Positions 5,710-26,278 of a stretch of DNA of 64,000 nt are shown piece by piece; the stretch's first letter is position 1, and every line of letters starts with the position of its first letter. Under the pieces are notes generated by a model. The model was not told the DNA's origin and did no database searches. It saw only the letters and a program-made list of their open reading frames with translations. Origin of the DNA: Microbacterium sp. Marseille-Q6648 (lineage in GTDB: Bacteria > Actinomycetota > Actinomycetes > Actinomycetales > Microbacteriaceae); the NCBI RefSeq assembly GCF_943181415.1, contig NZ_CALPBZ010000001.1:186001-250000 (forward strand), in the 5' to 3' direction. The position numbers and the translations under genes are program-made.

Positions 5710-5947
5710 GAGCCGTCACGTATGTCCGTCCCGGATGCCGCAACCGCACACGAGTGACGGCTCACAGCCCCGCTCGCCCGACCCCGCCACGCACCGTGCG
5801 CGAGCCGTCACGTGTGTCCGATCCGGATGCTGCAACCGCACACGAGTGACGGCTCACGGTCCCCGCTCACCCGACCCGCCGTGCGCCGGGTGCGAGCCGT
5901 CACGTGTGTCGACCACGCCCACCGCAACCGAACACAAGTGACGGCTC
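5710..5947. repeat. 54-bp palindrome array A (3 units, 92-bp period)
   Basis: Three imperfect palindromes at 5710-5763, 5802-5855 and 5894-5947. Each is exactly 54 bp, with left arm GAGCCGTCACGTRTGTC and right arm ending GTGACGGCTC around a 20-nt loop. The two spacers are both 38 bp. In this array the octamer GGATGCCG falls inside the loop of unit 1, with a variant in unit 2. The array fills the gap between the convergent CYTH and dihydrolipoyl dehydrogenase genes. No T-tract follows the arms. Same family as arrays B, C and D. Confidence 0.9.
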
Positions 5948-5976
5948 AGCATCCGAAACACCCGCCCGACAGACGA

Positions 5977-6011
5977 CGAAGCCCCCGCGACCTGACGGTG
6001 CGGGGGCTTCG
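5977..6011 (-). terminator. Terminator hairpin of the dihydrolipoyl dehydrogenase gene
   Basis: Perfect 12-bp stem (CGAAGCCCCCGC at 5977-5988 and its complement at 6000-6011) with an 11-nt loop, 18 bp after the stop codon of the minus-strand gene. The stem is GC-rich; no strong T-tract follows. Confidence 0.7.
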
Positions 6012-6028
6012 CGGTGCGAGACGGGGTC

Positions 6029-7426
6029 TCACATGTTGATCATGTGTCCGGCGAGGCCGTGGAAGGCTTCCTGCACGGCTTCTGAGAGCGTCGGGTGCGT
6101 GTGGACGTTGCGGGCGGCCTCGAGAGCGGTGAGGTCCCACTTCTGCGCAAGGGTCAGCTCGGGGAGGAGCTCCGAGACGTCGGGGCCGATCATGTGCCCG
6201 CCGAGCAGCTCGAGGTGCTCGCCGTCGGCGATGAGCTTGACGAAGCCGATGGGCTCGCCCAGGCCGTTCGCCTTGCCGTTGGCCGAGAACGGGAACTTCG
6301 CCACCTTGACGTCGTAGCCGGCGTCGCGCGCCTGCTGCTCGGTCAGACCGAACGACGCCACCTGCGGCGAGCAGAACGTCGCGCGCGGCATCATGCGGTA
6401 GTCGCCGAGCGGCATGGTCTCGGCCTTGCCGATGGTCTCGGCGGCCACGACGCCCTGCGCCTCGGCGACGTGCGCGAGCTGCAGCTTGGCGGTGACGTCG
6501 CCGATCGCGTAGATGTGCGGCACGTTGGTGCGCATGTAGTCGTCGATGTCGATCGCGCCGCGCTCGGTCAGCTTCACACCGGTCTTGTCGAGGCCGAAGT
6601 TCTCGACGTTGGGGGCGAAGCCGATCGACATGAGCACCTTGTCGGCGTCGATCGAGCCCTGCGTGCCGTCCTTGGCGGTGTAGGCGACGGTGACCTTGTC
6701 GCCCGCGTCGGTGACCGACTCGACCTTGGTCGACACCAGGATCTCGACGCCCATCTTCTTGTACTGGCGTGCGATCTCTTTCGAGACGTCGGCGTCCTCG
6801 TTCGGCAGTGCGCGGTCGAGGAACTCGATGATCGTGACCTTGACGCCGTAGTTCGACATCACGAAGGCGAACTCCATGCCGATCGCGCCGGCGCCGACCA
6901 CGACGAGCGACGACGGCAGCTCGCGCGTGAGGATCTGCTCCTCATAGGTGACGACGTTCTCGCTGAGCTCGACGCCCGGGAGCAGTCGCACCTTGGAGCC
7001 GGTGGAGATGATCGCGTTGTCGAAGGTGACGCGCTCGGACGAGCCGTCGGCCTTGGCGACGTCGATCGTGTTCGCGTCGACGAACGAGCCGCGGCCCTCG
7101 TACTCGGTCACCTTGTTCTTCTTCATCAAGAAGTGGATGCCCTTGACGTGGGTGTCGGCGACCTTTCGGCTGCGGTCCCACGCGACGCCGTAGTCGAACG
7201 ACACGTCGCCGCCGATGCCGAACAGCTCGGCCTTGTGGTTGAAGGTGTGAGCGAGGTCGGCGTTCTTCAGAAGCGCCTTGGAAGGGATGCACCCGACGTT
7301 CAGGCACACACCGCCCCAGTACTTCTCTTCGATGATCGCGACCGAGAGTCCGAGCTGAGCTGCGCGCACGGCCGCGACGTACCCGCCGGGCCCGGCGCCG
7401 AGGATGGCGACGTCGTAGTGAGGCAT
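6029..7426 (-). CDS. lpdA: Dihydrolipoyl dehydrogenase (E3)
   Basis: A 465-residue FAD protein from the ATG at 7426. It opens with the dinucleotide-binding motif [10 protein letters not shown] (residues 10-19) and has the redox disulfide Cys41/Cys46 in [13 protein letters not shown]. The second nucleotide-binding motif ([10 protein letters not shown]) and the C-terminal catalytic HTHPTLSE are present. It reoxidises dihydrolipoamide in the pyruvate and 2-oxoglutarate dehydrogenase complexes, passing electrons to NAD+. The E1/E2 genes are not nearby, which is usual in actinobacteria, where one E3 serves several complexes. It lies 10 bp downstream of the CopC-type gene on the same strand. Its activity could be linked with the GarA-type FHA regulator at 9145, which in relatives controls 2-oxoglutarate dehydrogenase. 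Confidence 0.95.
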
Positions 7427-7436
7427 GGTTCCCAGC

Positions 7437-8087
7437 CTATCGGTCGGTGGAGGGATCGGAGGTGCCGGTGTCGCCCCTGCGGGAGCGCGAGACGGCGAGC
7501 CACGCGAGCGCCCCGAGCCCCAGCGCGGCCAGCACGCCCACGATGATCCATGCGGTGGGGTCTGCGGATGCCGGCTCACCCGGAACCGCGGGATCGGGTG
7601 ACGCGGTCGCCTCGATGGTCTCGGTGGGCTCAGCGGTCTCGGTGGGCTCGGGCTCCGCCGTCGTGGTCGGCTCGGCCGTGGGCGCGGGTGCCTCGACGGT
7701 GAACGCGTACTCGCCCGAGATGGGGTGGCCGTCGCTGGAGACCACCTTCCACAGCACCGTCACATCGCCCGCGGGGGAGCCGGCGAGCGGCTGCGTCAGC
7801 ACGTTATCGGCGATGGACGGTTCGCCGTCGGCGAGGCTCTCGCCCGCGGCATCCGTCACCTCGATCTCGGTGGCGCCGGGCTCGGACGAGATCGCCGCGC
7901 TGAAGGTCAGGGTCAGCTCGTCGGGCAGCTCCGTCAGGGCGGCATCGGCGGCCGGGTCGCTTTCCACGAGCTCATCGTGGGCGAAGGCGGGGGATGCCGG
8001 CGCGAGCGCTCCGGCGAGCATCACCGCCCCCGCGATCAGACTCAGCAGCAGGTTTCGGCGACGGGGCGGGGTCTGGGGTGAACGCAC
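7437..8087 (-). CDS. CopC-domain copper resistance-type secreted membrane-anchored protein
   Basis: A 216-residue protein from the GTG at 8087. A signal peptide (residues 1 to about 30, ending PASPAFA) leaves a mature N-terminal His in [14 protein letters not shown], the classical copper-binding start of CopC. The CopC beta-barrel follows ([30 protein letters not shown]). A Pro/Thr/Glu-rich linker then leads to a C-terminal membrane helix ([20 protein letters not shown]) and a positively charged tail. So it is a cell-surface CopC/YcnJ-type protein held in the membrane. It is divergent from the copper-storage gene at 8190, giving a small copper-handling locus. Whether it binds Cu(I), Cu(II) or both is not resolved. 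Confidence 0.82.
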
Positions 8088-8132
8088 TCGATCCAGCGTA
8101 CCGGGGGTCTTCCGTCGGGCCGCCCACGCGTC

Positions 8133-8175
8133 TAGCCTGGCCGCAGGCGGGCTACCTGCCCGTCTCACCGACGGG
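8133..8175 (+). promoter_or_regulatory. Promoter and hairpins in front of the copper-storage gene
   Basis: A -10 box TAGCCT (8133-8138) is followed by an inverted repeat GCAGG-N7-CCTGC (8143-8159) at the expected transcription start. A second hairpin, CCCGTC-N5-GACGGG (8159-8175), lies 14 bp before the ATG. The first repeat is a candidate site for a copper-sensing repressor; no such regulator is in the window, so this is inference from position. Confidence 0.4.
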
Positions 8176-8189
8176 AAGCGAGACGCGCA

Positions 8190-8591
8190 ATGGACACCAT
8201 GATGATGGACGCCATGTCGAAGGACATGATGTCGATGCCCGGCATGGACACGATGGACATGTCCGTGATGCAGGCCTGTATGGACGCCTGCTCGGCCTGC
8301 GAGCAGGCATGCACCGTCTGCTCGACGCAGATGATGTCGTGCGCGCCGGCGTGCATGAACTGCGCCGACATGTGCAACACGATGATGCGCTCCATGATGC
8401 GGATGCAGGGCATGACACCGGCCTCGATGATGGCCATGCTCGACGCCTGCATCGCGATGTGCCAGACCTGCATGGACGAGTGCATGGAGCACGCCGACCA
8501 CAGCGACGTCTGCAAGATGTGCGCTCAGTCGTGCCAGGCCTGCATGGACGCGTGCATGGCGGTCAAGGACGCCATGATGGCGGCCGCCTGA
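8190..8591 (+). CDS. Cys/Met-rich four-helix copper-storage protein (Csp type)
   Basis: A 133-residue protein in which about a quarter of residues are Met and 18 are Cys. The Cys sit in helical spacing (CMDACSACEQACTVC, CAPACMNCADMC, CIAMCQTCMDEC, CKMCAQSCQACMDAC), as in the Csp/DUF326 copper-storage proteins whose four-helix bundle is lined with Cys thiolates binding many Cu(I) ions. The N-terminal 25 residues are extremely Met-rich (MDTMMMDAMSKDMMSMPGM) and have no signal peptide, so it is probably cytosolic like Csp3. The neighbouring divergent CopC-type gene supports a copper role. The Met-rich extension before helix 1 seems longer than usual and may be an extra Cu(I) site. Confidence 0.85.
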   Translation: MDTMMMDAMSKDMMSMPGMDTMDMSVMQACMDACSACEQACTVCSTQMMSCAPACMNCADMCNTMMRSMMRMQGMTPASMMAMLDACIAMCQTCMDECMEHADHSDVCKMCAQSCQACMDACMAVKDAMMAAA

Positions 8592-8613
8592 GTCCGAGGC
8601 GTCGGACCCGCAG

Positions 8614-8973
8614 TCAGGCCGCGCGGAGCGGCGCGATGTTGAACCGGGCAGAGCCGGCGGCCAGCACGTCGTAACGCGCGTGCAGCGCCACCGGCGATCC
8701 CACCTGGACCCGCGCCGCGGCGCCCGCACCGTTCCACACGGTGTGCGCGGTGTCGTCGACGAAACTCGTCACCACGACGACGCCGGTCGCGGCATCCGCC
8801 TCTGCGACGATGCCGTCGACCCAGTCGGACGGCGTCGCCGAGGCCAGGCGCGCCTGGATCAGGTGAAGCGCGTGGCCGGGGGCGTACGAGGTGCAGGGTC
8901 CGCCGTCGAAGCACATGCAGATCGCACGCTCGCGCACCTCGAGGGGCGGAATGTGGCTCTGCGGACTCGACAC
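8614..8973 (-). CDS. Uncharacterised protein (119 aa)
   Basis: A 119-residue protein from the GTG at 8973. It contains REAICM-like text (VRERAICMCFDGGPCTSYAPGHALHLIQARLAS) with two close Cys residues, and later small beta-like segments (GVVVVTSFVDDTAHTVWNGAG, GSPVALHARYDVLAAG). No signal peptide or membrane segment. I do not recognise a family. It faces away from the FHA gene and converges with the copper-storage gene, whose stop is 22 bp away. Codon use matches its neighbours, so it is probably a real gene; the exact start is uncertain. Confidence 0.6.
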   Translation of the reverse strand: MSSPQSHIPPLEVRERAICMCFDGGPCTSYAPGHALHLIQARLASATPSDWVDGIVAEADAATGVVVVTSFVDDTAHTVWNGAGAAARVQVGSPVALHARYDVLAAGSARFNIAPLRAA

Positions 8974-9114
8974 GATGGACTCCCAGTCAGTAGGTTCGTT
9001 GCTCAGCCAGGCTAAGACGCGGCGCTCCGTAGAGCACGCCGCTCGACACAGGCCGAAACATACGTACCTGCTGTGAGGCGGGAGAAGCCGGAAGACGATG
9101 CGATCCCTATCCGT

Positions 9115-9120
9115 TAGGCT
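9115..9120 (+). promoter_or_regulatory. -10 box TAGGCT for the FHA gene
   Basis: TAGGCT at this position predicts a transcript start near 9127, giving a leader of about 18 nt that carries AGGAGG (9133-9138), 6 nt before the GTG start. This favours GTG 9145 over the ATG at 9130, which would place the ribosome site inside the coding region. Confidence 0.5.
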
Positions 9121-9144
9121 TGCATCCGCATGAGGAGGTCCACT

Positions 9145-9654
9145 GTGGACGACAATCGCCGACCCGAGCCGGGTGACATCCGGCGCGGAAGTGGCGCAGG
9201 CGACGAGACGCGCAGCTTCGAGCGCGGATCCGACACCACGCAGACCTTCGGGCACGACTCCGATCTGTCGTTCGTGCCCTTCGGCAGCGAGCTGAACACC
9301 GCCGAGCTGGACGCCATCGAGGCGCTCCCCTCGGGTGCGGCGCTGCTGCTGGTCCGCTCGGGCCCGACCGCCGGGGCGCGCTACCTCCTCGACAGCGACG
9401 TGACCACCGTCGGCCGTCACCCCGAGGCCGACATCTTCTTCGACGACGTCACCGTCTCGCGTCGTCACGCCGAGATCACCCGCACCGGCTCGGCGTTCGA
9501 ACTCGTCGACCAGCGTTCGCTCAACGGCACCTATGTGAACGGCGAGCGCGTGGACCGCGCCGCGCTCACCAACGGCGCCGAGGTCCGCGTCGGCAAGTTC
9601 CGTCTGAACTTCTTCGTCTCACCGGCCGACCTCGCCCACCCGCCGGTCGCCTGA
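9145..9654 (+). CDS. garA: FHA-domain regulator, GarA/OdhI type
   Basis: A 169-residue protein. The start is GTG 9145, because AGGAGG lies 6 nt before it. The C-terminal half (about 65-165) is an FHA domain: VGRHPEAD, SRRHAEI and the SLNGTYVNG loop. The N-terminal tail has a Thr pair (SDTTQTF, Thr31/32) in the place of the phosphorylated ETTS motif of GarA/OdhI. In relatives the unphosphorylated protein inhibits 2-oxoglutarate dehydrogenase, and Ser/Thr kinases release this by phosphorylating the tail, after which the FHA domain binds its own tail. The neighbouring MerR genes follow the same order as Rv1827-Rv1828 of mycobacteria. Stop and next start share one base. Confidence 0.85.
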   Translation: MDDNRRPEPGDIRRGSGAGDETRSFERGSDTTQTFGHDSDLSFVPFGSELNTAELDAIEALPSGAALLLVRSGPTAGARYLLDSDVTTVGRHPEADIFFDDVTVSRRHAEITRTGSAFELVDQRSLNGTYVNGERVDRAALTNGAEVRVGKFRLNFFVSPADLAHPPVA

Positions 9655-10346
9655 TGGCGGCTGCCTCCGCCCGCGAACGCTCAGCGTCCGCGGGTCTGTT
9701 GAGCATCGGCCAGGTGCTCGCCCGGCTGACGCCGGAGTTCCCGACCCTCACCTCCAGCAAGCTGCGCTTCCTCGAGGTGCAGGGGATCGTCTCGCCCACC
9801 CGCACCGAGTCGGGCTACCGCAAGTTCTCGCAGGCCGACCTCGACCGGCTGCGTCTGGCGCTCACCCTGCAGCGCGACCACTACATGCCGCTGAACGTCA
9901 TCCGCGAGTACCTCGAGGACGTCGACGCCGGCCGCGACCCGTCGCCGCAGAGCACGATGCCGCCGCCGTCGATCGTGGCGGCCCCGCGCCGCTACCGTCG
10001 CGCCGAGCTGCTCACCGCGGCGGGCGCCGCGCCCCAGCTGCTCAACGACGCGATCAGCACGGGCGTGCTCGCCGGCTCGGACGCCTACACCGACCAGCAC
10101 GTCGCGCTGCTGCGTGCCCTCGTCGCCCTCGACCGGCACGGGATCGAGCCGCGCCACGTCAGGGCGCTCCGGCAGAACGCCGAGCGCGACGTCGCGCTGA
10201 TCGAATCTGCCATCGCCCCCGTCCTCCGGCGAACGGATGCCGCCTCGCGCGGTCGTGCCGGAGAAGTCGGCACCGAGCTCGCCAAGCGTCTGGATGAAGT
10301 GCGCGGCATCTTCATCCGCACGGCGCTGGACCGCCTGCTCGGCTGA
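9654..10346 (+). CDS. ftsR: MerR-family regulator, FtsR-like
   Basis: A 230-residue protein. The N-terminal MerR helix-turn-helix (about 14-85: LLSIGQVLARL, SSKLRFLEVQGIVSPTRTESGYRKFSQADLDRL) is followed by a longer C-terminal region (RRYRRAELLTAAGA, later LRQNAERDVALIE) shared with the FtsR/Rv1828 type. FtsR in Corynebacterium is encoded next to the FHA gene odhI and activates ftsZ. The position directly after the FHA gene here, with start overlapping its stop, supports orthology. A possible target is the AT-rich ftsZ leader at about 44.6 kb in this same window; that link is inference. Confidence 0.78.
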   Translation: MAAASARERSASAGLLSIGQVLARLTPEFPTLTSSKLRFLEVQGIVSPTRTESGYRKFSQADLDRLRLALTLQRDHYMPLNVIREYLEDVDAGRDPSPQSTMPPPSIVAAPRRYRRAELLTAAGAAPQLLNDAISTGVLAGSDAYTDQHVALLRALVALDRHGIEPRHVRALRQNAERDVALIESAIAPVLRRTDAASRGRAGEVGTELAKRLDEVRGIFIRTALDRLLG

Positions 10347-10456
10347 TCACGATTCGGTTGCGGCCGACGACACGCCGCGCCCGAACAGCCGATGTCGTTG
10401 CCGCGGGGCCCCCGCTCACCTAACGTTGAACTGTTGGCATCCGGATGGGAGAGCGC

Positions 10457-11002
10457 ATGACTGCTCGCGAAGCGGCCGACGGACAGCCGTTCGTCGCAGA
10501 CCTGCTCTTCACCGACGGTCTGCCGCAGATGGACGACGAAGTCGGCTACCGCGGTGCCCAGGCGGCGCGCGCAGCCGGGATCACTTACCGCCAGCTCGAC
10601 TACTGGGCCCGCACCGAGCTCGTCGAGCCCACCGTGCGCGGCGCCAGCGGCTCCGGCTCGCAGCGTCTCTACGGCTTCCGCGACATCCTCGTGCTGAAGC
10701 TCGTCAAGCGCCTCCTCGACACCGGCATCTCGCTCCAGCAGATCCGCGTCGCCGTCGACCAGCTTCGCGCCGCCGGCATCCGTGATCTCGCCGGCACCAC
10801 GCTCATGAGCGACGGCGCCTCGGTCTACCTGTGCACGTCGAACGACGAGGTCATCGACCTCGTCAGCCGCGGCCAGGGCGTCTTCGGCATCGCGGTCGGC
10901 AAGGTGCTGCGCGAGGTCGAGTCGACTCTCGTGGAGTTCTCTCCCGAGTCGCCCGACGCCATGGACGAGCTCGCCGCTCGTCGCGCCGCCCGCACCGCCT
11001 GA
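10457..11002 (+). CDS. MerR-family regulator, Rv1830-like
   Basis: A 181-residue protein. ATG 10457 is preceded by GGGAG; ATG 10445 in the same frame is an alternative. It has a MerR-like DNA-binding domain (GYRGAQAARAAGITYRQLDYWARTELVEPTVRGASGSGSQRLYGFRDILVLKLVKRLLDTGISLQQI broken over about residues 30-100) and a C-terminal region with a short LCTSNDEVIDL segment. In mycobacteria the order is FHA, MerR, bifunctional nuclease, MerR; here the nuclease gene is missing and the two MerR genes are 110 bp apart. Target genes are unknown. Confidence 0.78.
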   Translation: MTAREAADGQPFVADLLFTDGLPQMDDEVGYRGAQAARAAGITYRQLDYWARTELVEPTVRGASGSGSQRLYGFRDILVLKLVKRLLDTGISLQQIRVAVDQLRAAGIRDLAGTTLMSDGASVYLCTSNDEVIDLVSRGQGVFGIAVGKVLREVESTLVEFSPESPDAMDELAARRAARTA

Positions 11003-11041
11003 CGCGGTAGGGGTTTCGCTTCGGGTCGATGTTCGGCGCCC

Positions 11042-11177
11042 GGCGTCTGGTTTCGGGGCGTGCCCGTATTCGCGCGCTCGGCGTCTCGTTTCAGGGCGTG
11101 CCCGTTTTGGCGCGCTCGGCGTCTCGTTTCAGGGTGCGTCGGGTTTCGCGCGCTCGGCGTCTGATTCAGGGGGTGCG
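11042..11177. repeat. 38-bp tandem repeat, 3 full units plus part
   Basis: Units start at 11042, 11080, 11118 and 11156, an exact 38-bp period. Each begins GGCGTCT and ends CGCGCTC, with a middle of the form GTTTCAGGGCGTGCCCGT. The last unit is partial. This is the first part of a 1.3-kb gene-free island (11003-12296). No coding frame crosses it convincingly. Confidence 0.8.
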
Positions 11178-11184
11178 AGGTGCG

Positions 11185-11400
11185 GCATCCGGGGCTCGCG
11201 GGGTTTCGGCCGTCCTGTTGACGGCGCGCGGGGGCGGGGTTGCGGCATCCGGGGCTCGCGGGTCTCGGCCATCCGGTCACCGGGTGCGCAGGGCGCGGCA
11301 TCCGGGGCTCGCGGGTCTCGGCCATCCGGTCTCCGGGTGCGCAGGGCGGGGCATCCGGTTCCCGGGTGCGCAGGGCGCGGCATCCGAGGCGCGGGGTGCG
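11185..11400. repeat. 53-bp degenerate repeats carrying CGGCATCC
   Basis: Repeats of the type GCGGCATCCGGGGCTCGCGG followed by TCTCGGCCATCCGGTC and a GGGTGCGCAGGGC joint. Two good units start at 11242 and 11295 (53-bp period), with shorter decayed copies before and after. Nearly every copy carries the octamer CGGCATCC. Non-coding. Confidence 0.7.
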
Positions 11401-11550
11401 GCATCCCGCGGATTCCGATTCCCTGACTCCGGATTCCGGATACTCCCGCGTTCCGCAGCGGTTTCCGGAGGCGCCGGACTCCGGAAACCGGAGATCGGCG
11501 CGGTTCGCGGACTCCTGAACGAGAAACATCCGGGTATCGGCCGGATCTCC

Positions 11551-11633
11551 GGTTTCCGGACTCTCGACGGAGGGGAGACCTCCGGTTTCCGGACTCTCGA
11601 CGGAGGGGAGACCTCCGGTTTCCGGACCCTCGG
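11551..11633. repeat. 33-bp perfect tandem repeat (2.5 units)
   Basis: Two identical 33-bp units at 11551-11583 and 11584-11616, and a third partial unit to 11633. Each begins GGTTTCCGGACTCTCGACGG and ends GAGGGGAGACCTCC. Perfect identity suggests recent duplication. The 150 bp before it are rich in TCCGGA/GGTTTCCGG palindromes from which the unit probably arose. Confidence 0.85.
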
Positions 11634-11660
11634 TCCACCCCGTGGGCCACCCACGGCAGC

Positions 11661-12273
11661 GAGCCGTCACTTATGTCCGGGGCGGGCCGTCGGTGCCGAC
11701 ACACGTGACGGCTCGCTGAGCCGCCACCGCGCCGACCGCGGGAGTTGAATCCAGGATGCCGGCGCAGGCGGCCGCGGGGTACACATGGTTCCGGATGCCG
11801 GGTGAGACGTCACTTGTGTCCGCGGCGGCCCGCCATAGCCGACACGGGTGACGGCTCACGTGCCGTCAGAGTGCGCCGGGTGGGCGGTGCTGTTCCGGAT
11901 GCCGGGTGAGACGTCACTTGTGTCGGCGGCGGCGCGCCATAGAAGACACGGGTGACGGCTCGCGGGTCTGAGAGTGCGCCGGGTGGGCGGTGCTGTTCCG
12001 GATGCCGGCGCGAGCCGTCACTTATGTCCGTGGCGAGCCGCCATAGGTGACACGGGTGACGGCTCGCGGGTCCGAGAGTGCGCCGGGTGGGTGGTGCTGT
12101 TCCGGATGCCGGGGTGAGACGTCACTTGTGTCCGCAGCGCTCCTCAATAGCCGACACGGGCGACGGCTCACGTGCCGGCAGAGTGCGCCGGGTGGCGGTG
12201 CGGCTCCGGATGCCGGGGTGAGACGTCACGTGTGTCGGCGGCGGCGCGCCATAGCCGACACGGGTGACGGCTC
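11661..12273. repeat. 54-bp palindrome array B (6 units, 104-bp period)
   Basis: Six 54-bp units at 11661-11714, 11804-11857, 11908-11961, 12012-12065, 12116-12169 and 12220-12273. The last five start exactly 104 bp apart, with 50-bp spacers. Spacers share GTGCGCCGGGTGGG, GGTGCTGTTCCGGATGCCGG or close variants. Units 2, 3, 5 and 6 have GAGACGTCAC in the left arm instead of GAGCCGTCAC; right arms are mostly GACACGGGTGACGGCTC. The array lies between the convergent second MerR gene and a ParA gene. It is the most regular of the four arrays in the window. Confidence 0.92.
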
Positions 12274-12296: not shown

Positions 12297-13106
12297 TCAG
12301 GCGCGGACGTCGCTCGTGGTCGGGATGCGGCCGGTGCGGATGATGCGGTCGAGCAGCGCGTCGAAGTCGGCGGCGAGTTCCTGCGCGGAGTCTCCGGGCC
12401 AGATGTGCAGCGGCTTCGCCGCCCCCTGCGCCTGCTGCAGCGACGTGCGCTCGGGCAGCTGGGGCGAGAGGACGAGCGGGCCGAACATGTCGCGCAGCTC
12501 CTTGATGCGGAACTGGTGCTCGATCGACTGCGGGCGGACGCGGTTGACGACGATGCCGAGCGGCTGGAGGCGGGGGGAGAGGCCGCGGCGGATCTCCTCG
12601 ATCGCGCGCAGGGCGCGGTCGGCGGCGGCGACCGAGAACAGGCCCGGCTCGGTGATGACGATGACGCGATCGCTCGCAGCCCACGCGGTGCGGGTGAGGG
12701 CGTTCAGCGACGGGGCGCAGTCGATGAGCACGAGGTCGTACTCGGACTCGATGGTCGCGAGGGCCTCTTCGAGCTTCCACACGTCGCGCACCGACGGGTG
12801 CGGACCGTCGAAGTTGATGGCGGACGGGCTGCCGATCATGACGTCGATGGTGCCCGGATGCACCTTCGCCCAGCCGCTGGAGGTGATGGCCTGACGGACC
12901 GTCTTCTCCTTGGGATTCTCGAGGACGTCGGCGATGTTGAGCCGTCCGGCGACCTGAATGTCCATGCCCGTGGACACGTCCGACTGCGGGTCGAGATCGA
13001 CGACAAGAGTCCGGACACCCCGGGCGAACGCCGCGGAGGCGAGGCCGAGTGTCACGGTCGTCTTGCCGACGCCGCCCTTGAGTGAGCTGACCGAGAGCAC
13101 GTGCAC
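12297..13106 (-). CDS. ParA/Soj-type ATPase (orphan)
   Basis: A 269-residue protein from a GTG start. It has the deviant Walker A motif KGGVGKTT at residues 10-17, the DLDPQSDVS segment and a Walker B-like LVLIDCAPS. These define the ParA/MinD family of positioning ATPases. No parB gene or obvious parS site is next to it, so this is not the chromosome partition pair. It is divergent from pyruvate carboxylase and ends 23 bp from palindrome array B. A second ParA-type ATPase lies on the other side of the carboxylase gene. The cargo is unknown. Confidence 0.85.
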   Translation of the reverse strand: MHVLSVSSLKGGVGKTTVTLGLASAAFARGVRTLVVDLDPQSDVSTGMDIQVAGRLNIADVLENPKEKTVRQAITSSGWAKVHPGTIDVMIGSPSAINFDGPHPSVRDVWKLEEALATIESEYDLVLIDCAPSLNALTRTAWAASDRVIVITEPGLFSVAAADRALRAIEEIRRGLSPRLQPLGIVVNRVRPQSIEHQFRIKELRDMFGPLVLSPQLPERTSLQQAQGAAKPLHIWPGDSAQELAADFDALLDRIIRTGRIPTTSDVRA

Positions 13107-18878: not shown

Positions 18879-18883
18879 CGCGC

Positions 18884-18932: not shown

Positions 18933-20759
18933 TTACGGCAGCGAGACGTTCGACGTGTTGACGGGCGCGGCGTAGATCTCGTCGATGTCCTTGGCGAAGT
19001 CCGACATGATCACGTTGCGCTTGATGCTCATCTTCGGCGTGAGGTGACCGCTGGCCTCGCTCCACTCGGTGGGGAGGATCGTGAACTTGCGGATCGACTC
19101 GGCCCGCGAGACGCGTTTGTTGGCGATGTCGACGGCCTTCTGCACCTCGGCGCGCACGGCCTCGTTCTTCGCCGCCTCGTCCAGCGACATGTCGCCCGGC
19201 AGACCGTTGTTCGACAGCCACGTCGGCAGCATCTCGGAATCGAGGGTGATCAGCGCCGAGATGAACGGCTTCTGGTCGCCGACGACGACGACCTGGCCGA
19301 CGATCGGGTTGGAGCGGATGGGGTCCTCGAGCGCCGCGGGCGCGACGTTCTTGCCGCCGGCGGTGACGATGATCTCCTTCTTGCGGCCGGTGATCGTGAG
19401 GAAGCCCTCGCTGTCGAACGAGCCGATGTCGCCGGTGCGGAACCAGTCTCCGTCGAACGCCTCGGCGGTCGCCTCGGGGTTGCGCCAGTACTCCTTGAAG
19501 ACGTTGATGCCGCGCACCTCGATCTCGCCGTCCTCGCCGAGGCGAACGCCGACGCCGGGGAGCACGGGACCGACGGTGCCGATCTTCGACTTCGTGGCGA
19601 GGTTCACCGTCGCCGGCGCGGTGGTCTCGGTGAGACCGTAGCCCTCGAGGATCGTCACGCCCAGGCTGTGGAAGAAGTGCCCGAGGCGCTCACCCAGCGG
19701 CGCCGAGCCCGACACGGCGTAGACGACCTTGCCGCCCATGGCGGTGCGCAGCTTGCTGTAGACGAGCTTGTCGAAGAGGCGGAACTTCAGCTGCATGCTG
19801 AGCGGGATCTTCTTGCCCTCCTGCTGCATCTTCGAGTGCTCGATCGCCGTGTGGGCGGCGGTGCGGAAGATCCGGCCCTTGCCGCCGGCCTCGGCCTTCT
19901 GCTCGGCCGAGTTGTACACCTTCTCGAACACGCGCGGCACGGCCAGCAGGAACGTCGGCTGGAACGACCCGAGCGCGGGCAGCAGCTGCTTGGTGTCGGG
20001 CTGGTGGCCCGTCTTCACGCCGGCGTGGATGTCGAGGATGGAGATGAACCGCGCGAACACGTGCGCGGTCGTGATGAACAGCAGCGTCGACGCGCCCGGA
20101 ACCGAGACGACCTCGCTGAGGGCCTTGGCGGAGTTGCGGCACAGCTCCACGAAGTTGCTGTGCGTGAGCACGCACCCCTTCGGGCGGCCGGTCGAGCCCG
20201 ACGTGTAGATGAGCGTGGCGATGTCGGAGCCCACGGCGATCTGCCGGCGGCGCTGGATCTCGTCGTCGCTGACACCGGTTCCCTCCGACACCAGCGTGTC
20301 GAGGTCTCCGCGGTGCATCTCCCACGCCTTCCGCACGAGCGGAAGGTCGGCCTGGACCTCTTCGAGGCGCGAGGTGTGGTCGGCGGACTCGGTGATGCAG
20401 GCGATCGCGCCGGAGTCCGAGAGGATCCACGAGATCTGGTCGGGCGAGCTGGTCTCGTAGATCGGGACCATGACCGCGCCGGCGTAGAAGAGGGCGAAGT
20501 CGACGAGCGTCCAGTCGTAGGTGGTCTTGGCGATGAAGCCGACCTTGTCGCCGGGCTCGATGCCGGCGGCGACCAGGCCCCTGGCCAGGGCGATCACCTG
20601 CTTCTCGAAATCGGCGGCGGTGACGTCGCGCCAGCCGTCGCCGTCGGGAACGGCGAACAGCGCGAGATTCGGGGTCGCTTTGACACGCTCGGCGAGGAGG
20701 TCGGACACCCCCGCCTGGGGGTCGGCTGTGACGATGGCGGGGACTTCGAATTGGACCAC
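18933..20759 (-). CDS. Long-chain fatty acid-CoA ligase (FadD15-like)
   Basis: A 608-residue protein. GTG 20759 is preceded by AAGGAG at 7 nt spacing. It carries the AMP-forming motif YTSGSTGRPKG, the EGYGLTETTAP segment, the TGDIGSFDSEGFLTITGRKKEII hinge region broken over the second half, and a C-terminal Lys in SGHLTPKMSIKR. It activates fatty acids to acyl-CoA via acyl-AMP. It is close in plan to the FadD15/FACL group of actinobacteria. The gene is divergent from the glucokinase/acyltransferase pair that follows, and with it makes a small lipid and sugar activation group. Confidence 0.92.
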   Translation of the reverse strand: MVQFEVPAIVTADPQAGVSDLLAERVKATPNLALFAVPDGDGWRDVTAADFEKQVIALARGLVAAGIEPGDKVGFIAKTTYDWTLVDFALFYAGAVMVPIYETSSPDQISWILSDSGAIACITESADHTSRLEEVQADLPLVRKAWEMHRGDLDTLVSEGTGVSDDEIQRRRQIAVGSDIATLIYTSGSTGRPKGCVLTHSNFVELCRNSAKALSEVVSVPGASTLLFITTAHVFARFISILDIHAGVKTGHQPDTKQLLPALGSFQPTFLLAVPRVFEKVYNSAEQKAEAGGKGRIFRTAAHTAIEHSKMQQEGKKIPLSMQLKFRLFDKLVYSKLRTAMGGKVVYAVSGSAPLGERLGHFFHSLGVTILEGYGLTETTAPATVNLATKSKIGTVGPVLPGVGVRLGEDGEIEVRGINVFKEYWRNPEATAEAFDGDWFRTGDIGSFDSEGFLTITGRKKEIIVTAGGKNVAPAALEDPIRSNPIVGQVVVVGDQKPFISALITLDSEMLPTWLSNNGLPGDMSLDEAAKNEAVRAEVQKAVDIANKRVSRAESIRKFTILPTEWSEASGHLTPKMSIKRNVIMSDFAKDIDEIYAAPVNTSNVSLP

Positions 20760-20857
20760 GGCAACTCCTTCGGTACCGGTCGGGCAGGGGGAGGTCGTGA
20801 TCGAGTCTAACCACACGGACCGGCGTCACAGCGGGAGTGCGCGGGACGCGCCGCGGC

Positions 20858-20863
20858 TAGACT
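20858..20863 (+). promoter_or_regulatory. -10 box TAGACT for the ROK kinase
   Basis: TAGACT predicts a transcript start near 20870. The leader then carries GGAGGG at 20892-20897 in front of the GTG at 20904. Confidence 0.45.
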
Positions 20864-20903
20864 GCAAGGCGCCGTCGCGCCCGCGCCGGCCGGAGGGAGT
20901 GCG

Positions 20904-21839
20904 GTGTTCAGGGTCGGAATCGACATCGGCGGAACCAAGATCGCCGGCGGCGTGGTGGACGAGACCGGACGGATCATCGAGAAGGTCCGCGTCGACACCC
21001 CGACCGACACCGTCGAACTCGCCGACGCCGTCGTGAACATGGTCCGTCACCTCTCACTGCACCACGAGGTCGTCGCCACCGGCGTCGCCGCCGCCGGGTT
21101 CATCGACCGCGATCGCGCGACCGTCATCCACGCCCCGAACATCGCGTGGCGCAACGAGCCGCTCAAGGCCATCTTCGAGAGCCGCCTCGGCATGCCCGTC
21201 GCGATCGAGAACGACGCCAACGCCGCTGGCTGGGCCGAGTTCCGCTACGGCGCCGGCCGCGACGTCGACCACATGATGATGCTGACCATGGGCACCGGCG
21301 TCGGCGGCGCGGTCATCCTCGACGGCAAGCTCTACCGCGGCGGCCACGGCATCGGCGGCGAACTCGGCCACGTGCGCTTCACCCGCGACGGACTCCCGTG
21401 CGGCTGCGGGCAGAACGGCTGCCTCGAGCAGTACGCGTCGGGCCGCGCCCTGCAGCGCGAGGCGAACAGCATCGCGGTTGCCGGGGGCATCGGCGCGGGA
21501 CTGGCCGCGCTCCGCGCCGAGAAGGGCACCATCAGCGGTCCGGCGATCTCGCGACTCGTGCTGGCCGGCGACGAGGGCGCTGTCGAAGCGCTCCGCCGCG
21601 TCGCGACCGCTCTCGGCGAGGCGTGCGGCGGCTTCCAGGCCGCCCTCGACCCGGAGCTCTTCGTCATCGGCGGCGGCGTCGCCCAGCTCGGCGAGGACCT
21701 CCTCGGTCCCGTGCGGCTGGCGTACGAGACGTCGCTGCCGGGCTACGGCGACCGCCCCGTCGCCGAATTCGCCATCGCCCAGCTCGGCAACGACGCCGGT
21801 CTGATCGGCGCCGCGGATCTGGCCGTCGTGGAGGCTTGA
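20904..21839 (+). CDS. glk: ROK-family glucokinase
   Basis: A 311-residue protein from GTG 20904, with GGAGGG 7 nt before it. It has the N-terminal phosphate loop GIDIGGTKIAGGVVD, the ATP-site MGTGVGGAVI and the ROK signature with zinc ligands (GHVRF, CGCGQNGCLEQYASG). It phosphorylates glucose to glucose 6-phosphate with ATP; polyphosphate use is possible but not shown by motifs. It is followed 2 bp later by a PlsC-type acyltransferase and is likely co-transcribed with it. Confidence 0.88.
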   Translation: MFRVGIDIGGTKIAGGVVDETGRIIEKVRVDTPTDTVELADAVVNMVRHLSLHHEVVATGVAAAGFIDRDRATVIHAPNIAWRNEPLKAIFESRLGMPVAIENDANAAGWAEFRYGAGRDVDHMMMLTMGTGVGGAVILDGKLYRGGHGIGGELGHVRFTRDGLPCGCGQNGCLEQYASGRALQREANSIAVAGGIGAGLAALRAEKGTISGPAISRLVLAGDEGAVEALRRVATALGEACGGFQAALDPELFVIGGGVAQLGEDLLGPVRLAYETSLPGYGDRPVAEFAIAQLGNDAGLIGAADLAVVEA

Positions 21840-21841
21840 CG

Positions 21842-22540
21842 ATGTTCTACTGGCTGATGAAGTACGTGGTGATCGGACCGATCGTCAAAGCGATCTTCCG
21901 CCCGTGGATCGTCGGCCGCCGGAACGTCCCCGCCACGGGCGGCGCCATCCTCGCGAGCAACCACCTGTCGTTCGTCGACTCCGTCATCCTGCCGCTCATG
22001 ATCGACCGGCCGGTGTCCTTCCTCGCCAAGAGCGACTACTTCACCGGCAAAGGTCTCAAGGGCTGGGCGACCCGCGTCTTCTTCAAGGCCACCGGACAGC
22101 TGCCGATCGACCGCTCCGGCGGAAAGGCCTCCGAAGCATCGCTCAACACCGGACTGCAGGTGCTCGGCGGGGGAGACCTGCTGGGCATCTACCCCGAGGG
22201 CACGCGCAGCCCCGACGGCAAGCTGTACCGGGGTCGCACCGGCATCGCGCGCATGGCGCTCGAGGCAGGGGTGCCGGTCGTGCCGCTGGTCATGGTCGAC
22301 ACCGACACGATGCTGCCGATCGGACACCGCGTGCCCCGCGTCGTGCGGGTGGGCATCGTCATCGGCGAGCCGCTGGATTTCTCGCGATACGCCGGCATGG
22401 AATCCGACCGCTACATCCTCCGCTCGATCACGGACGAGATCATGGTCGCCCTGCAGCGACTCGGCGAGCAGGAGTACGAGGACGTGTACGCCTCGACGGT
22501 CAAGGACCGGCTGAAGCCCCGCGCCGTCGCCACTCGCTGA
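21842..22540 (+). CDS. 1-acylglycerol-3-phosphate acyltransferase family protein (PlsC-like)
   Basis: A 232-residue protein. It has the acyltransferase motifs NHLSFVDS (HX4D), GQLPIDRSGGK and YPEGTRSPDGKLYRGRTG. The N-terminus (FYWLMKYVVIGPIVKAIF) is a membrane-binding helix. Members transfer an acyl chain to lysophosphatidic acid or related lipids at the inner side of the membrane. It starts 2 bp after the ROK kinase stop. The pairing of these two genes beside aroG is common in actinobacteria. Confidence 0.88.
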   Translation: MFYWLMKYVVIGPIVKAIFRPWIVGRRNVPATGGAILASNHLSFVDSVILPLMIDRPVSFLAKSDYFTGKGLKGWATRVFFKATGQLPIDRSGGKASEASLNTGLQVLGGGDLLGIYPEGTRSPDGKLYRGRTGIARMALEAGVPVVPLVMVDTDTMLPIGHRVPRVVRVGIVIGEPLDFSRYAGMESDRYILRSITDEIMVALQRLGEQEYEDVYASTVKDRLKPRAVATR

Positions 22541-22564
22541 CCCCGCTCGACGCGGCGCGCGGGG

Positions 22565-22655
22565 CAGGGCGGTGACGCCGCGGACACCCGGCGGTGAGGC
22601 CCGTCGGGACAGGGCGGTGACGCCCGCGGGCGCAGGGCGGTGACGCCCGCCGTCA
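22565..22655. repeat. 22-23-bp tandem repeat with GGCG-N4-CGCC core
   Basis: The 15-mer CAGGGCGGTGACGCC occurs at 22565, 22610 and 22633, and a decayed copy (GGCGGTGAGGCC) lies near 22590, giving a 22-23-bp period. The core GGCGGTGACGCC is itself an inverted repeat (GGCG/CGCC). It fills the gap between the acyltransferase stop and the aroG promoter. Function unknown. Confidence 0.65.
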
Positions 22656-22684
22656 TGCGGCGGATCGGCGCCCGGGTGCGCGAC

Positions 22685-22690
22685 TAGAAT
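22685..22690 (+). promoter_or_regulatory. -10 box TAGAAT for aroG, leaderless arrangement
   Basis: TAGAAT is followed by 6 bp and then the ATG at 22697, so the expected transcription start is the start codon. A GAGGG lies between, but it is too close to the ATG to act as a normal ribosome site. Confidence 0.6.
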
Positions 22691-22696
22691 CGAGGG

Positions 22697-24034
22697 ATGC
22701 TTCAGCAGATCGACGCGCTCGACCACTGGCGGACCCTGCCCATCAAGCAGCAGCCGAAGTGGCCCGACGCGGAGGCGGTCGCCGCGGTCTCGGCAGAGAT
22801 CGCCACGCTCCCGCCGCTGGTGTTCGCCGGCGAGGTGGACAACCTCCGCGAGCGACTGGCGCGCGCGGCATCCGGTCGGGCTTTCCTGCTGCAGGGCGGC
22901 GACTGCGCCGAGACCTTCGCGGGCGCGACGGCCGAGCAGATCCGCAACCGCATCAAGACCGTCCTGCAGATGGCGGTCGTGCTGACCTACGGCGCCTCGA
23001 TGCCGATCGTGAAGATGGGACGCATGGCGGGTCAGTTCGCCAAGCCGCGCTCGAGCGACTCCGAGACCCGCGGCGACGTGACGCTTCCCGCCTACCGCGG
23101 CGACATCGTCAACGGGTTCGACTTCACCGAGGGCTCGCGCCAGGCCGACCCGCAGCGTCTGCTGAAGGGCTACCACACCGCCGCGTCGACGATCAATCTG
23201 ATCCGCGCGTTCACGCAGGGTGGCTTTGCAGATCTTCGCGAGGTGCATTCGTGGAACAAGGGCTTCGCGCAGAATCCTGCGAATCAGCAGTACGAGCGCC
23301 TGGCGTCCGAGATCGATCGCGCCATCAAGTTCATGGAAGCCGCCGGAGCGAACTTCGACGAGCTGCGCGGGGTGGAGTTCTACACCGGGCACGAGGGCCT
23401 GCTCATGGACTACGAGCGCCCCATGACCCGCATCGACTCGCGAACCGGCACGCCGTACAACACATCGGCGCACTTCCTGTGGATCGGCGAGCGCACCCGC
23501 GAGCTCGACGGCGCGCACGTGGACTACTTCTCCAAGATCCGCAACCCGATCGGCGTGAAGCTCGGTCCGACCACCTCGGCCGACACCGCCCTCGCGCTCA
23601 TCGACAAGCTCGACCCCGAGCGCGAGCCCGGGCGTCTGACGTTCATCACGCGCATGGGAGCGGGCAAGATCCGCGACGCTCTTCCGCCGCTGCTCGAGGC
23701 CGTGCGCGACGCCGGCGCCACCCCGCTGTGGGTCACCGACCCGATGCACGGCAACGGCATCACCACCCCCACCGGCTACAAGACGCGTCGCTTCGACGAC
23801 GTCGTGGACGAGGTCCGCGGGTTCTTCGAGGCGCACCGTGCCGTCGGGACCTTCCCGGGCGGCATCCACGTCGAACTCACCGGTGACGACGTCACCGAGT
23901 GCCTCGGCGGTTCCGAGATGATCGACGAGGCCACGCTCGCGACGCGGTACGAGTCGCTGTGCGACCCGCGCCTGAACCACATGCAGTCGCTGGAGCTGGC
24001 CTTCCTCGTGGCCGAGGAGCTCGAGAAGCGCTGA
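22697..24034 (+). CDS. aroG: 3-deoxy-7-phosphoheptulonate synthase, class II
   Basis: A 445-residue protein matching the class II (plant/AroG of Mycobacterium) DAHP synthase in length and motifs: QGGDCAETF near residue 67, KMGRMAGQFAKPRSS, PAYRGDIVNGF, HEGLLMDYERP, RMGAGKIRD and WVTDPMHGNG. It joins phosphoenolpyruvate and erythrose 4-phosphate, the first step of aromatic amino-acid synthesis. A divalent metal is bound by the Cys of GGDC together with the later His, Glu and Asp. Followed by palindrome array C. Confidence 0.96.
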   Translation: MLQQIDALDHWRTLPIKQQPKWPDAEAVAAVSAEIATLPPLVFAGEVDNLRERLARAASGRAFLLQGGDCAETFAGATAEQIRNRIKTVLQMAVVLTYGASMPIVKMGRMAGQFAKPRSSDSETRGDVTLPAYRGDIVNGFDFTEGSRQADPQRLLKGYHTAASTINLIRAFTQGGFADLREVHSWNKGFAQNPANQQYERLASEIDRAIKFMEAAGANFDELRGVEFYTGHEGLLMDYERPMTRIDSRTGTPYNTSAHFLWIGERTRELDGAHVDYFSKIRNPIGVKLGPTTSADTALALIDKLDPEREPGRLTFITRMGAGKIRDALPPLLEAVRDAGATPLWVTDPMHGNGITTPTGYKTRRFDDVVDEVRGFFEAHRAVGTFPGGIHVELTGDDVTECLGGSEMIDEATLATRYESLCDPRLNHMQSLELAFLVAEELEKR

Positions 24035-24088
24035 CCTGCGCGGGGCGCGCTGCCGGGAGACGCGCGGGGCGCGGGTCGTCTGGTGCGT

Positions 24089-24461
24089 GAGCCGTCAGTT
24101 GTGTCGGGTTCGGGCGGGTTGAGCCGACGGGAGTGACGGCTCGGTGAGGACTGTGGGTGCGGCATCCGGCCCGGGGGTTTCTTGGTGCGTGAGCCGTCAG
24201 TTGTGTCGGGTTCGCGGGGGTTGAGGCGACGGGAGTGACGGCTCGGTGAGGGCCGTGGGTGCGGCATCCGGCCCGTGGGTTTTCTTGGTGCGCGAGCCGT
24301 CAGTTGTGTCGGGTTCGGGTGGGGTTGAGGCGACCGGAGTGACGGCTCGGTGAGGGCTGTGGGGGCGGCATCCGGCCCGGCGGGGGGTCGCGAGCGCTCC
24401 GGTGCGCGAGCCGTCACGTGTGTCGGGATTGCGACCGCGAAGACGACAGGAATGACGGCTC
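24089..24461. repeat. 54-bp palindrome array C (4 units, about 103-bp period)
   Basis: Units at 24089-24142, 24191-24244, 24294-24348 (55 bp) and 24408-24461. Starts are 102, 103 and 114 bp apart. Left arms of the first three read GAGCCGTCAGTTGTGTC, unlike other arrays, and right arms read GACGGGAGTGACGGCTC or close. Spacers share GTGCGGCATCCGGCCC and GGTTTTCTTGGTGCG variants. The array occupies almost all of the 517-bp gap between aroG and the nuclease-fold gene, the only one of the four arrays between genes in the same direction. Confidence 0.9.
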
Positions 24462-24551
24462 GGCGAACGTGACGGCCGTGTGAGCGGCGCTGATCTCCGG
24501 GGCTGTGGAGAACTCGGCGGCCGTGTCGCCGCGGCCGGGCAGGATCGACGG

Positions 24552-25637
24552 ATGCCGAGACGTGCACGCGACCCTCTGCCCGACCCGCTCGGGAGCGGAC
24601 CCTTCGAGTTCGGCGAGGCGCGCGAGGCCGACATCGGGCGCGGCCGACTGCGGCGCGATGACATCTCGCATCCGCACCGCGGGCTCTACGTCCCCGCCGG
24701 CACGGTGCCGGAGGGGATCGAGGGTCGTTGTGAAGCGCTGCTCCCGTTGCTGGGTCCCGGCCAGTGGTTCAGTCACGCGACGGCGGCGCGACTGTGGGGG
24801 ATGCCGCTTCCGAAGCCGTACCGCGACGACGAGACGCTCCATGTGATCTCGCTCGCCGACGACGAGGCCAACGGTCGGTCGCTCCGGATGCGCAGGCCGG
24901 GTGTGTCCGGCTGGGAGGGTCGGAGCGCGCGGGGTGAGGTGCGCGGCATCCTGCCTGTCATCAGCCCGGCGGACGTGTGGGGTCAGCTCGCGACGCGTGG
25001 GGCGACCGCCACGGGAGTCACGCTCACGCGGGAATGGCTGGTGGCGGTCGGCGATCACCTGCTCACGGGGCCGCGTCTGCACGGTCGGCGTCATCCGCTC
25101 TGCACGCGGGCGCAGCTGGAGGACGCCGCCGCCCGGCGTCGCGGCGCGAGAGGCGCGCGGGCGTTGGAGTGGGCGCTCGAGCGGGTGCGCGAACCGGTCG
25201 ACTCGCCGAAAGAGACGCAGTTGCGGATGGGACTGGTGGCGCTCGGGCTTCCCGAGCCGGAGGTCCAGGTCGCGGTCGACACCGCCGAGGGCGTTCAGCA
25301 TGCGGATCTCGGGTATCGGCGCGCGCGGCTGCTGCTCGAGTACCAGGGCGAGGAGCATCGCGTGTCGCGCCAGCGGTGGCTGCGGGACCTCCGGCGGGTG
25401 CAACTCATGCAGGACGCCGGTTTCCACGTGATGCTCGTCGGTGCCGACGACGTCGACGATGCCGACGCCAGCAGGGCGGACGCAGGGGACGCGGTGGGGT
25501 CGGGCACCATGTCGGGATCGGGTGGTGGTTCCTCGGGAGATTCGGCCGCGGGATTCGGACCTCTGCCCGGCCCCGGCCTCGTCGCCCTGGCCGCTCGCGT
25601 TCGGCGGGCACTGGCGGGGGAGTCGTTCGGACGCTGA
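24552..25637 (+). CDS. AbiEi/Vsr-like protein of unknown function flanked by repeat arrays
   Basis: A 361-residue protein; ATG 24552 follows an AGGA. The N-terminal part (about 20-140) resembles the AbiEi-type antitoxin fold often annotated in actinobacteria: a winged-helix-like HRGLYVPAG, then FSHATAARLWGMPLP. The C-terminal part (about 215-300) looks like a DUF559/Vsr-type nuclease fold: Glu221 in DSPKETQLR, Asp252 in HADLGY and EYQGEEH (263-269), then WLRDLRRVQLMQDAGFHVMLV. A Gly/Ser-rich stretch (SGTMSGSGGGSSGDS) precedes the last helix. Such proteins are frequent, often in several copies, in Microbacterium, but have no assigned role. It is flanked on both sides by palindrome arrays (C and D), the only gene here so placed. 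Confidence 0.7.
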   Translation: MPRRARDPLPDPLGSGPFEFGEAREADIGRGRLRRDDISHPHRGLYVPAGTVPEGIEGRCEALLPLLGPGQWFSHATAARLWGMPLPKPYRDDETLHVISLADDEANGRSLRMRRPGVSGWEGRSARGEVRGILPVISPADVWGQLATRGATATGVTLTREWLVAVGDHLLTGPRLHGRRHPLCTRAQLEDAAARRRGARGARALEWALERVREPVDSPKETQLRMGLVALGLPEPEVQVAVDTAEGVQHADLGYRRARLLLEYQGEEHRVSRQRWLRDLRRVQLMQDAGFHVMLVGADDVDDADASRADAGDAVGSGTMSGSGGGSSGDSAAGFGPLPGPGLVALAARVRRALAGESFGR

Positions 25638-25662
25638 GCCCGCCGCCCCGTTCCGAGCTCGC

Positions 25663-26278
25663 GAGCCGTCACTTGTGTCGGGTGCGGCTGCGGCGGGGTG
25701 TCATACGTGACGGCTCGCGTTGCGGCGTGCAGGGGGAGGGGCGGACAACCGGAGGATGCCGGTTCTGGCAGCCGCGGCATCCGTAGACCCTCCGAGCCGT
25801 CACTTGTGTCGGGTGCGGCTGCGGTGTGGTGACATACGTGACGGCTCGCGCCCTGGCGTCTCGTGCGGAGGGACCGGACACCCCAGAGGATGCCGGTTCT
25901 GGCAGCCGCGGCATCCGTAGACCCTTCGAGCCGTCACTTGTGTCGGGTGGGGCTGCGGTGGGGTGACATACGTGACGGCTCGCGCCCTGGCGTCCCGTGC
26001 GGAGGGACCGGACACCCCAGAGGATGCCGGGACTGGCAGCCGCGGCATCCGCAGACCCTCCGAGCCGTCACGTGTGTCGGGTGCGGGTGCCGCGGGGTGA
26101 CATACGTGACGGCTCGCGCCCTGACCTACCCGACACGCGCCCCGGCCCACGCGCCGGCCCCAGACACCCACAGGATGCCGCGACTCACACCCGCGGCATC
26201 CAGCCGACGCCACCCGACCCCAGCGAGCCGTCACTCGTGTCGGCGCGTCGCGCCCGAACCGGCCACACGTGACGGCTC
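25663..26278. repeat. 54-bp palindrome array D (5 units, 134-bp period)
   Basis: Units at 25663-25716, 25794-25847, 25928-25981, 26062-26115 and 26225-26278, all 54 bp. Starts are 131, 134, 134 and 163 bp apart. Right arms are mostly GACATACGTGACGGCTC. The 80-bp spacers are nearly identical to each other and contain a second hairpin, GGATGCCG-N12-GCGGCATCC. The last spacer is longer and more diverged. The array fills the 656-bp gap between the nuclease-fold gene and the convergent kinase gene. Confidence 0.92.

Follow-up and report, generated by a model that had tools for sequence, protein, structure and literature searches.

A cluster of short palindromes in a 64,000-nt stretch (the window) of the genome of Microbacterium sp. 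Marseille-Q6648 (label G000; 3.49 Mb, 8 contigs) surrounds a gene, P0001, that resembles nuclease genes of the Vsr/DUF559 type. Judged by their flanking sequences, most of the P0001 relatives examined are bracketed by palindromes with gene-specific arms. The dispersed palindromes of roughly every second genome tested find their best match, in arm comparisons, around a nuclease-like gene of that genome. Our comparisons suggest that each palindrome type is paired with its own flanking nuclease-like gene, and that a nuclease unrelated to the REP-associated tyrosine transposases (RAYTs) of repetitive extragenic palindromic (REP) elements spreads or maintains them. We consider it fairly probable that the palindromes are the dispersed non-coding part, and a Vsr/DUF559-type nuclease gene the coding part, of a two-part repeat system whose spread we infer to be driven by the nuclease.

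Palindromes around P0001 and its relatives

The lead was a comparison of the neighboring genes of 152 palindrome copies, in which the palindromes C1:31054 and C1:32120 of genome G290, two of its five, flanked a homologue of P0001 (43% identity); the bracketed arrangement recurs in G558 and in Herbiconiux solani (G612). A search with P0001 located relatives at 128 places in 43 of 46 genomes, a biased sample, as 40 of the 46 had been picked for carrying such elements. At 90 of these places we looked for palindromes of 46-64 bp within ~230 bp of the gene, at thresholds of at least 16 or at least 15 of 20 arm pairs. With the stricter threshold a palindrome was present on the 5' side of 55 of the 90 relatives (controls, 6 of 180 genes), on the 3' side of 45 of 89 (12 of 180), and on both sides of 34 of 90 (1 of 180), while the looser one placed palindromes on both sides of 45 of 90 relatives as against 3 of 180 controls, and on at least one side of 78 of 90 as against 35 of 180. 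Of 45 genes with a palindrome on both flanks, 36 had arms that agreed between the flanks (14 of 16 or better), compared with 19 of 1980 mismatched pairs taken from different genes, and thus a gene and its two flanks have a common palindrome type, many of these types being unlike GAGNNGTCAC. A profile search also brought up a weaker relative in G290 with two 67-bp palindromes, both of one type, at its flanks; no such pair flanks another weak relative, which belongs to the Microbacterium genome itself.

The stop codon of one nuclease-like gene of H. solani (L330, G612:C4:371104-372241) apparently lies inside its 3' palindrome. On an unverified faecal 'Bacteriophage sp.' contig (L370, MT837503.1), a P0001 relative has a single flanking palindrome, of 59 bp, on its 3' side. 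A peptide-pattern search of viral contigs returned no P0001 relative.

Dispersed copies and the nuclease-like gene of the same genome

When ~89 loci were compared, the dispersed copies ranked a relative of their own genome first in 13 of 24 genomes (with one tie, G589), and protein similarity was correlated with arm similarity (Mantel r = 0.16, 0 of 5000 permutations as high). Of the two relatives in H. solani, L330 agrees with the main dispersed family, and L301 has at its flanks GAGCCGTCACAAACCGCCC-type palindromes, a type shared by a few other dispersed copies. Similarly, the second relative in G290 is flanked by TGTCCCACTT palindromes, a family that had earlier been found blind at two dispersed places.

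Beyond the Microbacteriaceae, relatives with related palindromes on both sides are also present in the Arthrobacter records NZ_CP012477.1 (WP_054009319.1, 'hypothetical protein'), NZ_AP024648.1 (where the 5' palindrome is weak, 13 of 20 pairs) and NZ_AP024649.1. Searching 72,556 plasmid records by blastn with two Arthrobacter palindromes gave 15 places in ERGS1:01 only and 6 + 5 in two StoSoilB13 replicons only, counts in which a palindromic query may score one copy twice; two of the dispersed StoSoilB13 copies are 57 bp long, the same as the flanking ones.

The P0001 protein family

In the alignment of 46 family members (P0001 and 45 relatives) the conserved residues are E221, R225, D252, E263, H269, D279 and R282, with E221, R225, H269 and D279 invariant and D252 and E263 nearly so, and the acidic and histidine residues among them would form a putative nuclease active site. 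PF18741 (REase_MTES_1575) is matched by 40 of the 46 members, with E up to 0.01, and PF04480 (DUF559) by 26. The best PDB profile match is 3hrl, an endonuclease-like protein (E = 0.0099), and there is a weak match to 3r3p, 'Mobile intron protein' (E = 0.25), which we take to be a Vsr-like homing endonuclease with the EDxHD motif that the conserved E221, D252, H269 and D279 resemble. Homing endonucleases with EDxHD motif and Vsr-like fold are selfish, Vsr-related nucleases; the known ones reside in introns or inteins, whereas genes of the P0001 family stand on their own between host genes, with palindromes bracketing them. The junction between the DAHP (3-deoxy-D-arabino-heptulosonate 7-phosphate) synthase and kinase genes occupied by P0001 (Table 1), traced in relatives through the DAHP synthase gene, has no nuclease-like gene in 15 of 16 genus relatives, and the remaining one, G169, has a gene of ~50% identity there.

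Copies in the window and in its genome

The window holds 18 palindromes in arrays of three, six, four and five copies, 17 of them 54 bp and one 55 bp long, exactly as counted in an earlier reading made from the sequence alone (the sequence-only reading), and it is also correct that four copies have A at position 4, three have G at position 10, and all have the same right end, GACGGCTC. That reading confined the family to 5.7-26.3 kb, which is true within the window but not genome-wide, since seven more copies lie elsewhere. The pattern GAGNCGTCAN{25,50}NGACGGCTC gave 24 forward and 19 reverse matches over the genome and the reversed-pattern control gave none, so the palindromes are not due to chance; in total there are 25 copies, 18 of them inside this 20-kb region. 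Four loci in 20.6 kb would be expected by chance with a probability of ~1.5e-7 per given window, or 2.5e-5 after rough correction, assuming nine independent loci (our own choice; the one-per-locus list has 11). In line with the sequence-only reading of the window, none of the 25 copies is inside a gene (simple gene caller) and three of the four arrays (1, 2 and 4) are between convergent gene ends, array 3 being in tandem orientation between the DAHP synthase and the nuclease-like gene. Array 4 ends 15 bp from the kinase gene.

Table 1 Palindrome arrays and genes of the window, with the palindrome copies found elsewhere in the genome
Feature	Position	Strand	Remark
CYTH gene	4655-5551	+	left neighbor of array 1
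Array 1, three 54-bp palindromes	5710-5763, 5802-5855, 5894-5947 (5710..5947)		between CYTH gene and Lpd, convergent
Lpd gene	6029-7426	-	right neighbor of array 1
MerR gene	10445-11002	+	left neighbor of array 2
Array 2, six 54-bp palindromes	11661, 11804, 11908, 12012, 12116, 12220 (11661..12273)		
ParA-like AAA_31 gene	12297-13106	-	right neighbor of array 2
Class-II DAHP synthase gene (aroG)	22697-24034	+	left neighbor of module
Array 3, four palindromes	24089, 24191, 24294 (55 bp), 24408 (24089..24461)		5' side of P0001
P0001, nuclease-like partner gene, 361 amino acids	24552-25637	+	between arrays 3 and 4
Array 4, five 54-bp palindromes	25663, 25794, 25928, 26062, 26225 (25663..26278)		3' side of P0001
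PASTA-domain protein kinase gene (pknB-like)	26294-28234	-	right neighbor of module
Seven copies outside the region	C2:150757, C2:150860, C2:256332, C2:306751, C2:306856, C2:380979, C3:62745		

The last five copies of array 2 follow each other with a 104-bp period that includes the spacer, and therefore the array appears to have grown by tandem duplication. Over the 25 copies of this genome the arms pair in only 20-32% at positions 11-13 and in 84-100% at positions 14-17, and from this unevenness we conclude that the arm is a two-part motif here and not a plain hairpin; CGTC is present within the arms. The palindromes have no match in an Rfam search, in which the sole match in the window at gathering score is the mraW RNA motif (32133-32232). 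Other repeats accompany the arrays: GGATGCCG / CGGCATCC recur in the spacers between palindromes and in some loops (5710-26278), a separate set of 33-bp tandem units with CTCCGGTTTCCGGACTC immediately precedes array 2 (11422-11642), and a low-complexity run rich in GGGGCT/GGGCTC immediately precedes array 1 (5560-5710).

A wider palindrome superfamily

The exact ends GAGCCGTCA...TGACGGCTC have matches in only 4 of 366 genus genomes. Leaving positions 4-5 free (pattern GAGNNGTCACN{33,36}GTGACNNCTC; control matches in one genome), we recovered a superfamily of the form GAGNN-GTCAC...GTGAC-NN-CTC, 54-56 bp long, which 37 of the 398 family genomes carry, representing 19 of 85 genera; H. solani has 36 matches and the Microbacterium genome 16. 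A scan of named genomes produced 55 stretches, including Herbiconiux, Frigoribacterium and another Microbacteriaceae isolate, where units of 52-55 bp have common ends and a different inner arm. Arm bases vary by genome and are mostly still complementary, and the length is nearly constant per genus (54, 55 or 56 bp). Scanning this genome and its relatives, and mapping the copies against gene ends, were tests named beforehand by the sequence-only reading, and both had a positive outcome: further copies exist in both, mostly extragenic and mostly at gene 3' ends.

A looser search of H. solani found 43 copies over 13 contigs (control 0). Taken together, these pair above shuffles at positions 5, 10, 12, 13 and 15-19; 36 oriented copies show polarity, with a median identity of 81%, and in the main subfamily the left and right arms are consistently mismatched at positions 11, 14 and 20. 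We dropped the model of a perfect hairpin, as these arms differ consistently and the element is polar. An outward palindromic extension of the flanks is in excess in the other genomes, where none of 2000 shuffles reached as high a value, and is not in excess in the Microbacterium genome. The outer flanks in H. solani (L211-L275) often read CCACTTCGCC, element, GGCGAAGTGG, which would allow a small extra hairpin at each end.

Several other repeats came up during these searches. G290 has three dispersed 50-bp palindromes, CGATTTCGTG...CACGAAATCG, within 400 kb (L143:163, L146:2432, L149:6986), with no partner gene identified. Bacillus-related genomes contain 51-52-bp palindromes that start with GAGCCGTCAGC and have AT-rich conserved flanks, apparently an unrelated repeat family (L039, L043, L047-L049, L052, L054, L062-L064, L070, L078, L079, L084, L087, L089). 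The loose ends GCCGTCA...TGACGGC matched in 79 of 99 genus genomes and were set aside as noise, being by eye mostly non-palindromic inside among the matches listed. A viral origin was likewise rejected: 17 IMG/VR stretches carry the end pattern, and as their inner sequences differ we took them as chance or unrelated.

Position relative to genes and alternative explanations

Using a simple codon model of our own for gene calls, we placed 63 copies from 60 loci of other genomes: 30 are convergent, 24 tandem and 3 divergent, the remaining 6 overlapping called genes. Convergent placement (30 of 57) thus exceeds the expected 11-15% and divergent placement (3 of 57) falls short of the expected 30-50%, the expectations being drawn from gaps of at least 60 bp. 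The median gap from these 63 palindromes to the nearest gene 3' end (stop codon) is 19.5 bp. For H. solani, the context of 36 of the 43 copies was convergent in 24, tandem in 7, divergent in 2 and within a called gene in 1, with 2 left unassigned.

The strong bias towards 3' ends and convergent gaps would be expected if the palindromes were mainly RNA hairpins of 3' ends, i.e., two-way terminators or stabilizers, their types no more than a genome fashion, and the nuclease genes insulated by strong terminators. For the window copies, folding energies of about -22 to -40 kcal/mol are predicted for the given strand, and at the aroG-pknB junction several genus relatives show a simple hairpin that resembles a terminator. 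Intrinsic terminators stand behind stop codons as these elements do, but the T-tract that should follow the stem is mostly missing here, a run of at least four T within 8 nt being found in just one of the 63 family copies, one of the 36 H. solani copies and none of the 25 in the Microbacterium genome. Nor would such hairpins account for a near-constant length combined with variable loops, for arms whose type belongs to a single gene and its flanks, or for the palindromes 5' of the nuclease gene (55 of 90), and we regard this explanation as unlikely.

It is also rather improbable, somewhat more so, that a regulatory or toxin-antitoxin-like protein uses the palindromes as binding or protection sites. 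In that view the gene with its flanks would be an autoregulated or immunity module, and the dispersed copies would make up its regulon. A regulator could be read into the two-part arm motif and into the N-terminal half of the P0001 family, which is conserved and, in 1 of 46 members, weakly matches the regulator domain AbiEi_4. However, a regulon would not lead one to expect dispersed copies that lie at 3' ends and seldom between divergent promoters (3 of 57), nor up to six copies in one tandem array or as many as 43 in one genome.

If the palindromes were miniature inverted-repeat transposable elements (MITEs) that depend on a DDE transposase encoded at another place in the genome, their inverted terminal arms, near-constant length and dispersal would fit. 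Unlike DDE MITEs, these palindromes have no excess of target-site duplications at their junctions (direct repeats of at least 3 bp in the immediately adjacent flanks of 63 family and 36 H. solani copies). Moreover, 54 single GAGCCGTCAC arms were matched as against 11 in the control, ~20 of them outside known copies, no two single arms faced each other within a few kb among the matches listed, and the gene between the copies is not a transposase, although DDE transposases were not searched for. We give this explanation very little credence. Sites for chromosome organization or a nucleoid protein, invoked to account for the regional clustering (18 of 25 copies within 20 kb), are less credible still, given that the 43 H. 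solani copies are spread over 13 contigs and that the cluster here surrounds the partner gene. Mobilization of classical REPs, or of their hairpin-forming doublets (REPINs), by a Y1 RAYT can practically be dismissed: the general behavior is that described for REPINs in the available part of PMC3116915, but PF01797 has no match in the Microbacterium genome and is present in 1 of 16 genomes searched.

Returning to the pairing of palindromes with a nuclease-like gene, a number of observations weigh against it. In 11 of 24 genomes the same-genome relative was not ranked first (ranks 2 to 63), and the Mantel correlation is weak and derives mostly from closely related proteins. The flank test covered 90 of the 128 places, its 180 control genes came from two genomes only, 35 of these controls have a palindrome on some side, by chance or as terminators, and 12 of 90 relatives have fewer than 15 pairs on either side, including the second relative in the Microbacterium genome (L366, best 14). 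The palindromes flanking the ERGS1:01 gene are 50 and 63 bp long, so that the length is not fixed everywhere, and a search of 150 kb around it gave no further copy; clustering at the gene is therefore no general rule. P0001 alone matches no Pfam model, and its AlphaFold model, built from the single sequence, is unusable (mean pLDDT, the predicted local distance difference test score, 39). The absence of excess target-site duplications counts here too. Finally, pairing at the variable positions of the 31-copy main subfamily in H. solani is no better than in shuffles, and hence selection for a hairpin is not proven copy by copy.

Comparison with known systems

REPINs are described, in the accessible portion of PMC3116915, as dispersed extragenic palindromes with several types per genome and tandem clusters that include their flanks; the clusters adjoin a partner gene, and repeats occur in the DNA flanking each partner gene. 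The elements studied here resemble them, as far as that portion goes, in being short, extragenic, dispersed palindromes, often at gene 3' ends, of several types, in tandem clusters amplified with their flanks, and with a repeat-flanked partner gene (PMC3116915). The initial classification as BIME/REP-like (BIME, bacterial interspersed mosaic element) is upheld on these counts and fails on the partner: the Y1/HUH RAYT-type transposase that it foresaw is lacking, with no PF01797 match in this genome nor in 15 of 16 genomes searched, and the partner here is of the Vsr/DUF559/MTES_1575 nuclease type, a likeness to PF18741 and PF04480 borne by the family but not by P0001 itself. The units also differ from REPs in being mostly 49-67 bp long, near-constant within a type and nearly full palindromes. 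REPs are stated, in the part of PMC3733652 available, to bear a tag, GTAG or CGTC, at one repeat end. A fixed-spacer palindrome of B. japonicum, GAATCCAT(N)23ATGGATTC, is similar in its fixed spacing, variable spacer and location near 3' gene ends, but no partner gene is proposed for it in the available part of its description (PMC5217627).

Literature searches, judged by titles and abstract beginnings in an open-licence collection, listed no paper connecting these palindromes, or DUF559/MTES_1575/Vsr-type genes, with dispersed palindromes. To our knowledge, RAYTs are the sole enzyme class recognized as REP partners, and we know of no description that ties PF18741 or DUF559 domains to palindromic repeats.

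Proposed mechanism and implications

We postulate that the nuclease recognizes its own palindrome, either in duplex DNA through the two arms or after extrusion as a hairpin, and that it would nick or cut there, whereupon repair may copy the palindrome to new places or convert existing copies to the current type. Five genome pairs keep a palindrome at the same gene junction (one of them being the array 2 junction, where H. solani also has a palindrome), and in four of the five the arms follow the genome and not the site, a pattern that repeated insertion and the conversion of older copies could each produce. New copies would survive mainly right behind stop codons, where a hairpin would be nearly harmless and might act as a structure of the 3' end, and arrays could later grow by tandem duplication together with their spacers. 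The cluster at 5.7-26.3 kb may then represent spread around a source gene at 24.5-25.6 kb.

In its broadest form, for which we see the case as evenly balanced, the proposal is that Micrococcales harbor widespread self-spreading hairpin repeats, each hairpin type being propagated by a Vsr/DUF559-type nuclease of its own. Such a system would parallel REP/RAYT independently; several pairs per genome may co-diversify, and the nuclease would homogenize its copies by cut-and-copy conversion. A second partner class built on a restriction/repair-type nuclease would, if true, mean that gene-plus-palindrome systems arose more than once, and a large family of genes in these bacteria, most of them without annotation, would acquire a role. 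It would also supply many natural enzyme-site pairs with a specificity readable from the flanks, and would allow a direct test, in harmless soil bacteria, of how REP-like repeats spread, which is an old question.

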